From: a bacterium
GTDB taxonomy: Bacteria; Deinococcota; Deinococci; Deinococcales; Deinococcaceae
Reading direction: 5' to 3'
DNA: 64,000 bases
NCBI GenBank assembly: GCA_021810505.1
Contig: JAJZIR010000001.1
Location: forward strand, 186,001-250,000
Part shown: positions 21,640 to 26,792 of the stretch, piece by piece
Position numbering within the stretch: the first letter of the stretch is position 1
How the letters are laid out: the number at the start of each line of letters is the position of its first letter
Position numbers and translations under genes: made by a program
Notes under the pieces: model-generated
Told to the model about the DNA's origin: nothing
Seen by the model: the letters and a program-made list of their open reading frames with translations, nothing else
Database searches by the model: none

Positions 21640-21927
21640 TCAGCTGCGCAGGAGCCGTACGATACGGTTCACCTCGGCGGGATCGATCGCTCCTTGCTGC
21701 TGGCAACCTTCTAGGTAATCGGAGAGCACTTTCTCCCCAGCTGCGTCCAAGGCCCTGCGGACCCCGATGAGCAGAGTGAGAACCTCTCCGCAGGGCCTTT
21801 CCGCCTCGATCATCCTCCGGAGCCCGCGAAGTTGCCCTTCGGCGCGCTTGATCCGGTTGAGGATCCGCCGCCTCTCCTCGCCGCGCAGTAGCTCTTGCTC
21901 CTGGGGAGCGGCCTCAGCCCCTGGCAC
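21640..21927 (-). CDS. CsoR/RcnR-family repressor, CstR-like (Cys-Tyr-Cys)
   Basis: A 95-residue all-helical DUF156 repressor. The family core is RILNRIKRAEGQLRGLRRMIEAERPC. Copper-sensing CsoR uses Cys, His and Cys spaced 25 and 29 residues apart; here these are Cys46, Tyr71 and Cys75. Loss of the histidine argues against Cu(I) and resembles CstR, which senses persulfides by linking its two cysteines. It is the last gene of the DUF302-disulfide reductase-repressor operon, starting (GTG) one base after the previous stop. Its likely operator is the inverted repeat at 23128-23170. Confidence 0.88.
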   Translation of the reverse strand: MPGAEAAPQEQELLRGEERRRILNRIKRAEGQLRGLRRMIEAERPCGEVLTLLIGVRRALDAAGEKVLSDYLEGCQQQGAIDPAEVNRIVRLLRS

Positions 21928-21928
21928 G

Positions 21929-22597
21929 CTAGGCTGCAGAGGTTGCGCGGAGTGCGGCTTCCAGGAAAGCTCGCTCGGGCTGCCCCCCTAGCACCCGTTC
22001 GGTGCGCTTTCCGGAGACGATGGTGTCGGGGACTCCGCGGATCTGCCAGCGCTCGGATAGCCCGGGGAACTCGCTGGCCTGAGTCCCGATGGCCAGCACT
22101 TGGGGGTGGTGGTAGGCGAGGCGGTAAGCGGTCAGCACTGCCGAAGGGCAGTAGGGGCAGGTCGGAGTGACGAAGGTCTGCAGGGTCAAGGGGCCGGCGA
22201 TAGCACTCAGCTCCCTCTGGAGCTGGTCCGATAACCCGCTCTCTCCAGTCCCCAGCATGACCAGGGCTTCGATCAGGGTGCTGAACTCATATCCGCTCGG
22301 CAAGCCCAGGAACCGCAGGTTGTCGCGTGCGCTCCCACCTTCGCGGAGCAGCGTGGTCGGAGCGCGGTCGATACCCAAGGCCTGCGCCTTTTCGGATCCC
22401 AGCGACTCTTGAATCAGCCGCAACTGGGGGTTGAGCTGCGCCACTTCTCTCAGGAGTTCCACCGTTTCGGCTTGGTGTCCAGTCTCCCGTCCGGGGAGCT
22501 GCAGGGCGGTCGTGAACACCACCATCTCGACGTCGTATCCGATGGGGGCCAGCAACTCTTGTACTTTCTGTGCGGTCTTCTGGTCAAGATAAGCCAT
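21929..22597 (-). CDS. Protein disulfide oxidoreductase (tandem glutaredoxin/thioredoxin fold)
   Basis: A 222-residue protein of the PDO family: two thioredoxin-like halves. The C-terminal half carries the redox motif TPTCPYCPSAV (about 143-153) and the cis-proline RGVPDTIVSG near 188. The N-terminal half (residues 1-110) has the fold pattern (VEMVVFTTAL, IDRAPTTLL) but no CxxC, so only one half should be redox-active. Such proteins reduce protein disulfides or persulfides. ATG with AGGAGATC upstream. Middle gene of the repressor operon. Confidence 0.85.
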   Translation of the reverse strand: MAYLDQKTAQKVQELLAPIGYDVEMVVFTTALQLPGRETGHQAETVELLREVAQLNPQLRLIQESLGSEKAQALGIDRAPTTLLREGGSARDNLRFLGLPSGYEFSTLIEALVMLGTGESGLSDQLQRELSAIAGPLTLQTFVTPTCPYCPSAVLTAYRLAYHHPQVLAIGTQASEFPGLSERWQIRGVPDTIVSGKRTERVLGGQPERAFLEAALRATSAA

Positions 22598-22654
22598 GCC
22601 GATCTCCTAAACGCCGGGGCGATGTGAAACCAGATACCCAGGGGATTGCTGGGA

Positions 22655-23092
22655 TCAAGCAGAGCTCGCAGCTAGGATATCCCGCACTCGCTGCAGCTTC
22701 TCTCTGGCTGACCTCGCCAGGTGGGCCGCCTCGGGAAGCTGTAGTACTGCGAGCATGACCTCTGGGTCGACGAATTCTACCTGGAAGGAGCCAGGGCCGA
22801 GCGCCCGGATGACGACGTTGCAAGGGAGGAGCAAGCCGGCGTCCACCTCCAGGTTCAGGAGCTGGTCCGCCAGGGCGGGGTTGCAGGCTCCCAGGACTCG
22901 GTAGTCGGCCATCTCCTTGCCGAGTTTCCGCTGCATGGTCGCAGCTACGTCGATATCGCTCAAGACTCCGAACCCCTCTCGGTGTAGGGCTTCGGTGACG
23001 ATTTCCACCACCTGGTCTAATTCCCCTGACAGGGTTATTCCAAACCCGTAGCGGGGCTGCGGGGGCTTTTCGGTTGCCGACGGGTAGTGCAT
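22655..23092 (-). CDS. DUF302 family protein
   Basis: A 145-residue DUF302 protein: the domain spans YGFGITLSGELDQVVEIVTEALHREGFGVLSDIDV (about 15-50) and the hallmark KLGKEMADYRVLGACNPALADQLL (about 56-80), ending with a short helical tail. The family has no firmly known biochemical role but recurs with sulfur and heavy-metal resistance genes. I place the start at the ATG behind GGAGGGAATC; a GTG four codons upstream is the alternative. First gene of the operon, directly downstream of the inverted repeat. The conserved ACNP cysteine could be a thiol sensor or carrier; that is conjecture. Confidence 0.85.
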   Translation of the reverse strand: MHYPSATEKPPQPRYGFGITLSGELDQVVEIVTEALHREGFGVLSDIDVAATMQRKLGKEMADYRVLGACNPALADQLLNLEVDAGLLLPCNVVIRALGPGSFQVEFVDPEVMLAVLQLPEAAHLARSAREKLQRVRDILAASSA

Positions 23093-23110
23093 GATTCCCT
23101 CCACCCCAGC

Positions 23111-23116
23111 AGGTTA
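23111..23116 (-). promoter_or_regulatory. Candidate -10 box of the DUF302 operon
   Basis: TAACCT on the minus strand about 20 nt before the DUF302 ATG. Seventeen nt upstream the -35 position has no good match and falls near the edge of the 43 bp inverted repeat, as expected for a repressed promoter. Confidence 0.35.
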
Positions 23117-23127
23117 TCACTTCTTTG

Positions 23128-23170
23128 ACGAGATTTCCATATACCCCCCATGGGTATATGGAAATCTCGT
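23128..23170. promoter_or_regulatory. 43 bp perfect inverted repeat, probable CsoR/CstR operator
   Basis: Arms of 19 bp, ACGAGATTTCCATATACCC (23128-23146) and its exact complement (23152-23170), separated by 5 bp. The centre, ATACCC-CCCAT-GGGTAT, has the form of known CsoR/CstR operators, in which a G/C tract is flanked by A/T. It lies between the DUF302-PDO-repressor operon and the divergent KirBac gene and could control both. The arms are AT-rich compared with the genome. A terminator is unlikely because both neighbours are transcribed away from it. Confidence 0.75.
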
Positions 23171-23256
23171 ACGGGACTTGATTCTCTGGCAGGGCGGCTG
23201 AGCGCTCGGCGCCGTATGCCATAGTACGGTGTGCCAGTTCTTGTCCGAGGGGCCCG

Positions 23257-24255
23257 GTGAACCGGGCGCAGCCTCCCAACCCTGGGCAGCCCGAGGAGGA
23301 TTTGGGCCTTGGGCGGATCATCGCTCAGGAGAGCGGTCAGCGGCTGGTCGAGCCGGATGGTCGCCTGGGGTCTAACCGGATCGGTTTGCAGTTCTGGCCC
23401 TCGCTCAACCTCTATCACCACCTAATTGGCCTGCCCTGGTGGGTTTTCTTATCGCTGCTCGCCCTGCTCTTCCTATCCGTCAATGCTGCGTTCGCTACCC
23501 TGTACCTCTGGACCGGTTCCCTCTCGCTCTACGCCTCGCCGAGGCTGGGATTTGTTGGCCTGTGGCTGAAGGACTTCTTTTTCAGCGTCGAGACGCTAGC
23601 CACCATCGGCTACGGCCAGATTTATCCCGTGACGGTGCTGTCGAACCTGGTGATGACCGCGGAGTCCTTTCTGGGATTGCTGGGCCTCGCTGTCGCCACC
23701 GGCCTAGTTTTTGCCCGCTTTGCTAGGCCCAAGCAGCGCATCCTCTTCAGCCGCTCAGCCCTGATCGCCCCCTACGGCCAAGGCCGTGCCCTGATGTTCC
23801 GCATCGTCAACGGCCTGCGCACCCAAGTGATCGACCTGGAGATTCGGGTGGTATTCACGCTCTTTAGAGATGACCACGGGGCCCGGGTACGCCATTTCCA
23901 CACCCTGGAGCTGGAGCGAGCTTACGTCCCGCTGCTCCCCGGCCCCCTGACGGTTGTACACCCGATCGGGCCGGAGAGCCCACTGGCTGCTCTGGACCCA
24001 GGGTTCTTGCGATCCGGCGAGGCCGAGTTCCTAGTCCTGCTGTCGGGTTTGGATGACACGCTGTTCCAGCCGGTGCGGGCCCGCGCGTCCTATCTGTGGT
24101 CTGACCTGGTGTGGGGGGCGCGTTTTCGGAGCATGTTTGTCCACGCAGCCGGCCACCTGGTGACCGACGTCCGCCTACTGAACGACGTCGAGTTGCTGGC
24201 AGAGCCACCTGCCGCCCCTCCCGTGCGCGCTCAGGAAGGCCCCGGCCCGCTGTAG
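23257..24255 (+). CDS. Inward-rectifier potassium channel, KirBac family
   Basis: A 332-residue channel: cytoplasmic slide helix (NLYHHLIGLPWW, about 51), first membrane helix (62-83), pore helix and selectivity filter TLATIGYG (about 113-120), second helix (VMTAESFLGLLGLAVATGLVFARFARP) and a C-terminal immunoglobulin-like Kir domain from about residue 155, with RIVNGLRTQVIDLEIRVVF and LELERAYVPLL blocks. Length agrees with KirBac. GTG start; GAGGGG upstream is a modest ribosome site. It conducts K+ across the inner membrane. Divergent from the CstR-like operon and sharing its intergenic operator. Confidence 0.92.
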   Translation: MNRAQPPNPGQPEEDLGLGRIIAQESGQRLVEPDGRLGSNRIGLQFWPSLNLYHHLIGLPWWVFLSLLALLFLSVNAAFATLYLWTGSLSLYASPRLGFVGLWLKDFFFSVETLATIGYGQIYPVTVLSNLVMTAESFLGLLGLAVATGLVFARFARPKQRILFSRSALIAPYGQGRALMFRIVNGLRTQVIDLEIRVVFTLFRDDHGARVRHFHTLELERAYVPLLPGPLTVVHPIGPESPLAALDPGFLRSGEAEFLVLLSGLDDTLFQPVRARASYLWSDLVWGARFRSMFVHAAGHLVTDVRLLNDVELLAEPPAAPPVRAQEGPGPL

Positions 24256-25400
24256 CGAGCTCGCGGCCGGACCGTGACGCCCTGCCTCTGGGCCTCGAGG
24301 CTGTGGGCCAGCCACCCGACAGCCCGTCCCAGGGCGAAGAGGGCGAGCGCCTCTCGCTCGGGTCGGCCCAGCGACCGGGTCACTGCGGCTAGGCCCAAGT
24401 CGAGGTTGGGGGATAGGCCGAGCCTCTGGCGGGCTACCCCGCAGAGCTCGGCCACAGCTCCTGCCCTGTCGGCGTGGCTTTCTAGGACCCGTTCGGTGAG
24501 CAGCCTTCCCCTCGGGTCCCCTTCCGGATAGAGCGGGTGGCCAAAGCCGGGGACTTCTCCCCAGCGCTCCAGGGCGGTCGCCATAGCCCGCTCGGCTCCG
24601 TGCACTTCCGCCCCGGCTAAGAGCGCCGCGCAGCGCACGCTCATCTGACCGTGATGGCTCCCCTGGAGCGCGCACCAGCCGGCTAAGGCCGCGTGGTACA
24701 GAGTTGCCCCGCTGGAGGCTGCGCAGCGGGCGGTGAAGCTGGAAGCGTTCAGCTCGTGATCGGCGCTGAGAATCAAGGCGGTCCGGAGCAGCTCTTCCTG
24801 CGCCCCGCTGGCTCGCCAGGCCCGGCCCAGGCGGCGGTGCAGCGGGAGTTCCGGCCTGGGTTCCAAGCCGCTTTGGCGCTCTGCGCTACTGTAGAGCAGC
24901 TCCAGCACTGAGACGGCACTGAGCAGCTGGCTTCGGGGGTCCGCAGCGCTGGCTGCCCAGTCTACATGGGCGGCCAGTACCAGGCGCATCCCCAATGCCG
25001 TTACCAGGTCTTGGTGCCCCGGCAGTTCTGGGGCAGGTCGCCTCGGCCCGGGCAGCGCGCTCTCCTCGACACCCGACCAGAGCAGGTTGGCGACCTGCTC
25101 TACGCTGGCTCGGCCTGCCAGGTCTAGCGCGTCTATCCCTCGGTAGTAGTAGCGCCCAGCCCCGATGTAGGTGAGTCCGGAGCTGAGGAGGGGAACACCG
25201 AAGTGCAGCGGATCGCTGAACGCGGTCAGCGGATTGTGCCGGCCGTCGCGCTCGGCCAGCAGGCGCTCTACGTCTTCTCGGGAATATTTTCCCCTACCCC
25301 GGGAGCGGATCAGGCCGCGGCTAGCGTAGGCGTAGAGGGTGGAAAGCTTGACGCCCAAGCGCTCCGCTGCTTCTTGGGCGGAAAGATCCTCGGCTTTCAT
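24231..25400 (-). CDS. Citrate synthase-like enzyme with N-terminal MerR-type DNA-binding domain
   Basis: A 389-residue protein. Residues 5-48 (LSAQEAAERLGVKLSTLYAYASRGL then GKYSREDVERLL) are a MerR-like helix-turn-helix; the rest is a citrate synthase fold with the full catalytic set: His in GSHHGQ (about 263), His in PGFGHPLYPEG (about 290), Asp in NLDLGLAAV (about 345), and RPRARYSGP at the end. It would condense acetyl-CoA (or propionyl-CoA) with oxaloacetate. I choose the ATG at 25400; a TTG 12 codons upstream is unlikely. TAGAGT sits 7 nt before it, so the mRNA is probably leaderless. Divergent to a second possible citrate synthase. Confidence 0.85.
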   Translation of the reverse strand: MKAEDLSAQEAAERLGVKLSTLYAYASRGLIRSRGRGKYSREDVERLLAERDGRHNPLTAFSDPLHFGVPLLSSGLTYIGAGRYYYRGIDALDLAGRASVEQVANLLWSGVEESALPGPRRPAPELPGHQDLVTALGMRLVLAAHVDWAASAADPRSQLLSAVSVLELLYSSAERQSGLEPRPELPLHRRLGRAWRASGAQEELLRTALILSADHELNASSFTARCAASSGATLYHAALAGWCALQGSHHGQMSVRCAALLAGAEVHGAERAMATALERWGEVPGFGHPLYPEGDPRGRLLTERVLESHADRAGAVAELCGVARQRLGLSPNLDLGLAAVTRSLGRPEREALALFALGRAVGWLAHSLEAQRQGVTVRPRARYSGPGPS

Positions 25401-25420
25401 ATTGATTACTCTATCAATAT
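25399..25420. promoter_or_regulatory. Inverted repeat over the citrate synthase start and promoter
   Basis: ATATTGAT (25399-25406), 6 bp, ATCAATAT (25413-25420): perfect 8 bp arms. It overlaps the minus-strand -10 box and start codon of the HTH-citrate synthase gene and abuts the -35 position of the divergent gene. It is a natural candidate binding site for the MerR-like domain of the synthase itself. Confidence 0.5.
25408..25413 (-). promoter_or_regulatory. Leaderless promoter of the HTH-citrate synthase gene
   Basis: TAGAGT, 7 nt before the ATG on the minus strand, with TTGATC exactly 17 nt further upstream (25431-25436) as the -35 box. Confidence 0.6.
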
Positions 25421-25442
25421 AGATATTTTTGATCAAGTTACC

Positions 25443-25448
25443 TAGAAT
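25443..25448 (+). promoter_or_regulatory. Leaderless -10 box of the Re-citrate synthase-like gene
   Basis: TAGAAT, five of six bases of the consensus, ends 6 nt before the ATG at 25455. No ribosome site is present. Confidence 0.6.
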
Positions 25449-25454
25449 CTCAAC

Positions 25455-26792
25455 ATGACTGGAAACCCTAGCGATCGCTCCGCCCTCTCCGGAGAGAGTA
25501 GCCCTGAGCTGTTTGCTGACAGCTTCCCTCTATCTGGATTTCCGGCCTTTGCCTGGGCCGAGCGCCCACCGCACTTGCCAGCACAAGCCTGGACCACCGA
25601 CACCACCCACCGGGATGGGCAGCAGGGGGGCCTTCCCTTGAGTACCTCCCAGGGGCTCCAGGTCTACCAGGCGATCTGCCGCTTCACCGCCGCGAGCGGC
25701 GCGGTAAGGCAGTGCGAGTTTTTCGTGTACCACCCAACCGACCGGTCCATGTTAGAGGCTGCGCTGGAATGCTACGCCTCCGGTGCACCGGTGGAACCGA
25801 CCACCTGGATTCGGGCCAGCCGCGAGGACGCGGCCTTGGTCGGTCACCTGGGAGTACGGGAGACCGGCATGCTGGCCAGCGCCAGCGATTACCACACCTT
25901 TTATAAATTTCGCCCGAGCGGCCGCGCAGCGGCGGCCCAAAAGTACCTGGCTGCGACCGAGGCGGTTCTAGATTGCGGCCTGCGTCCCCGGTTGCACCTG
26001 GAGGACGCCACCAGGGCTCCGGCCGAATTCTTATTTCCTTTCGTGGAGGCGGTCTTGGCGCTGGCTTCCAGGTACGGGCCAGCTCAGCGGCCCAGGTTCC
26101 GGGTCTGCGACACGCTGGGTGTGGGCCTGCCCTACCCGGGAGTAGCTTGGCCGCGCAGCGTTCCGCGATTGATCGGCGGCCTGCTGGACCTGGGCCTGCA
26201 GCCAGAAGATCTGGAGTTTCACCCCCACAACGACTTGCACTTAGCGGTGGCTAATAGCTTGGCGGCGGTGATGGCCGGCTGCGCTTGCGTCAACGGCACC
26301 GTTTTCGGCAAAGGGGAGCGTTCCGGTAACGTCCCGATCGAAGGGGTATTGGTGCACCTGATCGGGATGGGTTACTTTCCTTCGTCTTCGGCTCCCGACT
26401 TCCGCAGCCTGAACGACCTGGCGGATCTCTATGCGCGTTGGGGGCAGGGGCTCGCTGCCAAGTTCCCCCTGTACGGCCGGGATGCCCACAGGACCCGAGC
26501 CGGTATCCACGCCGACGGCCTAGCCAAATTTTGGCCGATGTACGCGCCCTTCGATGTCCCAGCTCTGCTGGGCCGGCCCCTGGAGGTGAGCCTGACCAAG
26601 GAGAGCGGCTTGGCCGGGCTGGCGCTGCTCATCCGCCAGCACACCGGTGCGGACTTGGAGAAGACCGACCCGTTCCTGGTCCAGCTACACGCCCAGTTGG
26701 AGGCGGAGTTCGCTGCTGGTCGCCAGGGAGCGGTCGAGTGGGAGGAACTCCGCGACCGCGTCCTGGCACACCTGGGTGCGGTCAGGTCCTAA
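25455..26792 (+). CDS. DRE-TIM metallolyase resembling Re-citrate synthase
   Basis: A 445-residue member of the isopropylmalate/homocitrate synthase superfamily. The HMGL-like barrel shows WTTDTTHRDGQQ (about 46-57; DRE-type Asp and catalytic Arg), CEFFVYHPTDR, TSWIRAS-like WIRASREDAALVG, HLEDATRAPAEFLFPFVE, RVCDTLGVGLPYPG, and the metal ligands in EFHPHNDLHLAV (about 255). This wording follows the branch that includes Re-citrate synthase of Clostridium kluyveri, not LeuA or NifV, and the LeuA regulatory domain is missing. Probable product: citrate. Its divergent partner is a Si-type citrate synthase with a DNA-binding domain, which supports a citrate role. Specific activity is inferred. Confidence 0.72.
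   Translation: MTGNPSDRSALSGESSPELFADSFPLSGFPAFAWAERPPHLPAQAWTTDTTHRDGQQGGLPLSTSQGLQVYQAICRFTAASGAVRQCEFFVYHPTDRSMLEAALECYASGAPVEPTTWIRASREDAALVGHLGVRETGMLASASDYHTFYKFRPSGRAAAAQKYLAATEAVLDCGLRPRLHLEDATRAPAEFLFPFVEAVLALASRYGPAQRPRFRVCDTLGVGLPYPGVAWPRSVPRLIGGLLDLGLQPEDLEFHPHNDLHLAVANSLAAVMAGCACVNGTVFGKGERSGNVPIEGVLVHLIGMGYFPSSSAPDFRSLNDLADLYARWGQGLAAKFPLYGRDAHRTRAGIHADGLAKFWPMYAPFDVPALLGRPLEVSLTKESGLAGLALLIRQHTGADLEKTDPFLVQLHAQLEAEFAAGRQGAVEWEELRDRVLAHLGAVRS

Follow-up and report, generated by a model that had tools for sequence, protein, structure and literature searches.

Re-citrate synthase is known from Clostridium kluyveri, Syntrophus and Dehalococcoides (PMC12016533). In Caulobacter, two citrate-synthase paralogues lie next to each other, of which CitB complements E. 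coli gltA and CitC does not, and CitA of the same organism is reported as a cell-cycle regulator that exerts its control independently of catalysis, not as a DNA-binding fusion (PMC7083601). CcpC and CcpE, which regulate tricarboxylic acid (TCA) cycle genes in response to citrate, are LysR-type proteins (PMC8514465, PMC11315280). Here we describe two divergent genes in a 64,000-nucleotide stretch of a Deinococcaceae genome (contig JAJZIR010000001.1, positions 186,001 to 250,000; hereafter the window). Relatives such as Calidithermus and Trueperaceae also point to Deinococcota as its phylum. One encodes a citrate-synthase-fold protein with an N-terminal helix-turn-helix (HTH) domain, which we call HTH-CS, and the other a DRE-TIM metallolyase of the Re-citrate-synthase branch. 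Taken as a whole, the locus probably consists of a one-component regulator derived from citrate synthase, which most likely acts as a repressor, and the Re-citrate-synthase-like backup enzyme that it controls.

HTH-CS and the candidate operator

The HTH-CS gene occupies 24231–25400 on the reverse strand and the DRE-TIM gene 25455–26792 on the forward strand, 54 bp apart, in agreement with a first-pass annotation made from the sequence alone. That annotation also ascribed a MerR-like HTH and the complete catalytic residues of a Si-type citrate synthase to the first gene, and both are borne out. The 389-aa product (ATG at 25400) matches the Pfam families HTH_17 with 33.6 bits (cut-off 27), MerR_1 with 23.4 bits (cut-off 21.6) and Citrate_synt with 182.6 bits. 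Its HTH domain spans residues 1–55 (25236–25400, reverse strand; HTH_17 at residues 6–51), and the recognition helix region reads S20-TLYAYASRG. Y23, S27, R28 and G29 are invariant in all aligned HTH-CS proteins of the two groups described below, DRE-TIM-linked and proteobacterial, bar one truncated row. An AlphaFold2 model (mean pLDDT 89) comprises a winged HTH at residues 5–55 with a two-strand wing, a disordered linker and an all-helical domain. The best PDB fold matches are citrate synthases and 2-methylcitrate synthases, the closest including M. tuberculosis CitA.

The citrate-synthase domain keeps the catalytic residues H215, H288 and D334 and the arginines R297, R359 and R378, which align with H274, H320, D375, R329, R401 and R421 of pig citrate synthase. 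All six are complete in 37 of the 45 DRE-TIM-linked HTH-CS proteins and in 14 of the 16 proteobacterial ones. This indicates that the oxaloacetate/citrate pocket is under selection. Eight of the 45 lack the full set, and most of these eight retain the operator described below. The acetyl-coenzyme A (acetyl-CoA) loop, canonically GPLHGGANE, has become G-x-[RK]-HGG-x-T in the HTH-CS family, with substitutions at P, L, A and N; in the window protein it reads GSHHGQMSV instead of the canonical sequence. HTH-CS also scores far under all NCBIfam citrate-synthase cut-offs. We read the domain as a ligand pocket, possibly with residual catalysis, and its conservation leads us to favour, with some reserve, oxaloacetate, citrate or an acyl-CoA as the signal.

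Between the two genes lies a palindrome, ATATTGAT-N6-ATCAATAT, with the core TTGAT-N6-ATCAA at 25402–25417. An exact copy, ATATTGAT-TACTCT-ATCAATAT, stands at 25399–25420; no other site in the window comes within three mismatches (0.01 expected), and none elsewhere in the 2.31-Mb genome has fewer than three. The first-pass annotation had seen it cover the HTH-CS start and the -35 position of the second gene. We find that it covers the HTH-CS start codon and -10, and that it extends up to the -35 position of the DRE-TIM promoter. The predicted DRE-TIM promoter (forward strand) has its -35, TAGATA, at 25420–25425, which is also a degenerate third half-site and reads TTGACA in relatives. Its -10, TAGAAT, follows at 25443–25448, 17 bp from the -35, a spacing also found in relatives. 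The predicted HTH-CS promoter (reverse strand) has its -35, TTGATC, at 25431–25436 within a second palindrome, TTGATCAA at 25429–25436, which recurs in the matching intergenic region of one relative (L008). Its -10, TAGAGT, lies 17 bp away at 25408–25413, inside the operator. The earlier suggestion that both genes are leaderless stands in part. The distances from -10 to ATG in the window, 7 nt for HTH-CS and 6 nt for the DRE-TIM gene, fit it, but the feature is not conserved; several relatives, L008 among them, have a Shine-Dalgarno sequence before their DRE-TIM gene.

Conservation of the pair and of the operator

An alignment-based homologue scan of genome contigs took in 68 DRE-TIM loci. Close relatives of the DRE-TIM protein, at 52–71% identity, come from Deinococcota, Chloroflexota, Verrucomicrobiota and Actinomycetota, and from metagenome-assembled genomes labelled Acidobacteria, Bacteroidetes and others. 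A survey of HTH-citrate synthases beside this family, which the first-pass annotation had called for, places HTH-CS next to the DRE-TIM gene at 45 of the 68 loci, always divergently and in at least four phyla. The protein distances of the two partners are correlated (r=0.77; best of 1000 permutations 0.26), and they therefore travel as a unit. No further conserved neighbour was found around the pairs among the loci compared, so the pathway is not readable from gene context. At four other loci, a GntR regulator occupies the place beside the DRE-TIM gene. One genome without HTH-CS encodes, immediately upstream of its DRE-TIM gene, a free-standing HTH_17 protein of 90 aa (L060:5726–5998), possibly a relic or a different regulator.

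The exact core TTGAT-N6-ATCAA is present between the genes in 35 of the 45 pairs, compared with 0.17% of dinucleotide shuffles, and with at most one mismatch in 39 of the 45, compared with 1.9% of shuffles. By eye, the operator can also be recognised in L048, L053 and L062, where the spacer is 7 nt, and in L028, outside the position scored. The one clear absence is L047, in which the citrate-synthase domain has decayed and is without catalytic residues. The common form in relatives is ATATTGATT-N4-AATCAATATTGAC, whose closing TTGAC doubles as the DRE-TIM promoter's -35, often a full TTGACA. Of 39 cases, 28 have a TANNNT 17 or 18 bp beyond this TTGAC, and no other spacing tested accounts for more than two. 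Pair-bearing genomes contain about one operator site each, at the pair, with few extras, and a reversed control pattern gave zero. Chance neighbours with an incidental palindrome therefore have practically no probability, given that the divergent pair is conserved at 45 loci and that the operator is far more frequent there than in shuffled sequence; a chance palindrome is rejected both by the 0.01 sites expected in the window and by the shuffle test over the 45 pairs.

In Proteobacteria, HTH-CS genes are divergent from other partners. These include a non-HTH, Si-type citrate synthase (Agrobacterium, Chelatococcus, Ensifer, Pararhizobium), a CoA transferase (Azospirillum, Comamonas, Ewingella), a major facilitator superfamily (MFS) transporter followed by a 2-hydroxyacid dehydrogenase (Thioclava, Caballeronia) and a DUF2332 gene (Roseomonas, Pseudoroseomonas). 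The motif GTCAATnTTGAT-N7-ATCAA is found with 0–2 mismatches at 13 of 13 divergent proteobacterial HTH-CS genes, including that of Niveispirillum, whose partner gene is unannotated. It is found at none of the three co-directional ones (L133, L134 and L140; Burkholderia/Caballeronia), which share their direction with MFS and VOC genes. Four DRE-TIM genes have the operator and no neighbouring HTH-CS (L017, L039, L041, L069), and in each of these four genomes a full HTH-CS is encoded at another place. In genome G127, one operator site lies at the DRE-TIM gene and another at the distant HTH-CS. Conversely, 11 of the 12 genomes with neither operator nor neighbouring HTH-CS are without any full HTH-CS; the twelfth (G078; L045, Dictyobacter aurantiacus) has one at L191, unlinked to its DRE-TIM gene. 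By this distribution, the predicted operator is that of HTH-CS and not of the target gene, a pattern expected of a regulator and its operator. HTH-CS is thus very probably the regulator of the pair, acting through the palindrome, a proposal of the first-pass annotation that the conserved operator and the co-occurrence in cis and in trans support well.

Further observations concern individual HTH-CS genes. The one at L191 has an operator of its own, TTGATTTTTATATCAA, and its divergent neighbour resembles, by eye, a carboxymuconolactone-decarboxylase-type protein. Those at L096, L098, L130 and L137 (at 7989, 7971, 2989 and 2992, respectively) have a divergent CoA transferase and the same operator. 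CoA transferase partners suggest that the regulator family may respond to acyl-CoA-related signals. In the window, 21640–24255 encodes a CsoR-type metal-sensing repressor, a thioredoxin/glutaredoxin-like protein, a DUF302 protein and an inward-rectifier-type K+ channel, and the 3' ends of the channel gene and the HTH-CS gene overlap by 25 bp.

The DRE-TIM enzyme and its proposed control

The DRE-TIM protein (445 aa, ATG at 25455) contains the motifs DTTHRDGQQGG, R179-x-H181-x-ED and HPHND, and matches the Pfam family HMGL-like with 100.6 bits. Its best NCBIfam match, nifV_homocitr, scores 136.7 against a cut-off of 462.9, and the other models are below cut-off too; there is no Re-citrate synthase model among its NCBIfam matches and no Re-citrate synthase among its PDB matches. 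Phylogenetic analysis united the DRE-TIM family with four Chloroflexota proteins (L157–L160; 38–40% identity) in a clade with 100/100 support. Sequences resembling isopropylmalate synthase, homocitrate synthase, NifV and citramalate synthase fall apart from this clade, at about 23–27% identity. One of the four, L160:5944–7338 from the Chloroflexota genome G229, is about 38% identical to the DRE-TIM protein and is a good Re-citrate synthase candidate, because its genome has no PF00285 citrate synthase at all. Two others, L157:6188–7594 and L159:6415–7824, represent a further Re-citrate-synthase-like clade, in Chloroflexota genomes where the contig concerned also encodes a canonical citrate synthase.

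R179 and H181 are invariant in 42 members of the DRE-TIM family, and R-x-H is also present in L157–L160 and L152. Before the ED motif, lysine-type homocitrate synthases have R-x-S/T, and isopropylmalate and citramalate synthases differ as well. As a putative fingerprint of Re-citrate synthase, R-x-H favours a dicarboxylic 2-oxo acid substrate such as oxaloacetate. The source genome encodes LeuA in an ilv cluster (L011) and a homocitrate-synthase-like protein beside aconitase-like HacA/HacB (L012). Both genes lie elsewhere, and the DRE-TIM gene has no leucine or lysine pathway neighbours. Identification as an isopropylmalate, homocitrate or citramalate synthase is rejected by the NCBIfam cut-offs, the separate paralogues and the tree, in keeping with the original placement of the metallolyase on the Re-citrate-synthase side. 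On balance, we lean towards the gene encoding a Re-type citrate synthase.

We propose that HTH-CS evolved from citrate synthase and combines a winged helix of MerR type with a ligand domain of citrate-synthase fold, through which it dimerises. The dimer would bind TTGAT-N6-ATCAA and a third TTGAC half-site between the genes, and would thereby block the -35 of the DRE-TIM gene. We are fairly confident that binding represses this gene, since the third half-site coincides with the -35 of a promoter that is close to consensus and has the usual 17–18 bp spacing. In the window, HTH-CS would also repress itself because the same operator covers its -10 and start codon. A ligand of the citrate-synthase pocket would either release HTH-CS from the DNA or tighten it there. 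The DRE-TIM enzyme would be retained in an auxiliary role beside the housekeeping Si-citrate synthase, and would itself be a Re-type citrate synthase or a closely related enzyme that condenses acetyl-CoA with a dicarboxylic 2-oxo acid.

Several observations weigh against this proposal. The source genome encodes a canonical citrate synthase, as do all 37 DRE-TIM genomes searched, and in none of the 37 is the DRE-TIM enzyme the sole citrate synthase. It is therefore auxiliary, and a citrate-forming role is not forced. The Re-citrate synthase reference in the tree is the candidate from G229, with no biochemically proven enzyme included. Among the proteobacterial partners, the CoA transferase, the MFS transporter with 2-hydroxyacid dehydrogenase and the DUF2332 protein are not citrate-forming. 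Judged by its sequence, the window pair is itself a diverged member, because its third half-site has degenerated into TAGAT and its HTH wing is shorter than in relatives. The ubiquity of canonical citrate synthase would suit a DRE-TIM enzyme that is under the same regulator and operator and makes another product, such as 2-methylcitrate, citramalate or an unknown alkylmalate, with HTH-CS sensing that product or an acyl-CoA. The departure of the DRE-TIM family from the Re-citrate synthase candidates at THRDGQQGG and HPHND points the same way, as do the other HTH-CS partners, which act on CoA esters or non-citrate acids. We nevertheless regard another product as rather unlikely: the invariant R179/H181 are common to the Re-citrate synthase candidates and differ from citramalate, isopropylmalate and lysine-type homocitrate synthases, and a citrate synthase sits in the same slot in Rhizobiaceae and Chelatococcus.

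The direction of control and the activity of HTH-CS can be read differently as well. HTH-CS might activate the DRE-TIM gene, in a MerR- or class II-like manner, from a site touching the -35. Its HTH is MerR-like, MerR proteins are often activators, and the site lies just upstream of the -35 and touches it. MerR promoters, however, have a 19–20 bp spacer, while the spacer here is the normal 17–18 bp, and a -35 that is often a full TTGACA needs no activator, which makes activation improbable. HTH-CS could also be a bifunctional trigger enzyme, still active as a citrate or methylcitrate synthase and binding DNA according to its turnover state. The six residues, complete in most members of both groups, argue for this, and so do the nearest folds, which are those of active citrate and 2-methylcitrate synthases. 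Considering the altered acetyl-CoA loop, the eight of 45 proteins that lack the full catalytic set and yet mostly keep the operator, and the failure of Caulobacter citC to complement gltA (PMC7083601; an HTH in CitC is not established), we think such dual function unlikely, and retain a ligand-sensing repressor as the preferred description of HTH-CS.

Comparison with known systems

Enzyme-derived regulators are a known kind. In the open-access literature searched, with subscription literature outside the search, we found no description of a citrate-synthase-fold regulator that has a cross-phylum operator and is coupled to a non-homologous enzyme that probably catalyses the same reaction. Our results imply that a group of proteins so far annotated as 'citrate synthase family protein' probably act as transcription factors on a defined operator, which makes their regulon predictable from sequence. 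In a broader form, to which we give about even weight for and against, a family of transcription factors that sense metabolites and have one conserved operator has arisen from citrate synthase, with members from Deinococcota and Chloroflexota to Proteobacteria. In one large branch of this family, the Si-type-derived regulator would control a non-homologous Re-type enzyme for the same reaction and detect, in its former active site, the substrate or product common to both. Should the partner prove to be a Re-citrate synthase, the locus would couple two unrelated enzymes of a single reaction by having one of them sense on behalf of the other. The question would then arise of why genomes of aerobic lineages that have a working Si-citrate synthase also maintain a Re-type copy under regulation.

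HTH-CS shares the fold, the His/His/Asp residues and the substrate arginines of Si-type citrate and 2-methylcitrate synthases (PF00285; M. tuberculosis CitA, 8gi7; Salmonella PrpC, 3o8j), but differs from them in its N-terminal winged HTH, altered acetyl-CoA loop, operator link and NCBIfam scores below cut-off. With MerR/excisionase-like HTH_17 regulators, it has in common a winged HTH above the Pfam cut-offs, a divergent gene and a palindromic operator. Unlike MerR, it has no coiled coil, its ligand domain is an enzyme fold, and its operator lies at and upstream of the -35 of a promoter with a 17–18 bp spacer. Re-citrate synthase is a DRE-TIM metallolyase like the window enzyme, which shares its clade and R-x-H with the candidate from the genome without Si-citrate synthase. 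In contrast to that candidate, the window enzyme belongs to genomes that keep a Si-citrate synthase, and its gene is predicted to be under a citrate-synthase-derived regulator. CcpC and CcpE are alike in proposed function, a TCA metabolite controlling citrate formation, and differ in their unrelated protein family and operator. Finally, enzyme-derived regulators and trigger enzymes, Caulobacter CitA included, use a central enzyme fold for control, as we propose for HTH-CS, which differs from CitA in its dedicated DNA-binding domain and conserved operator.

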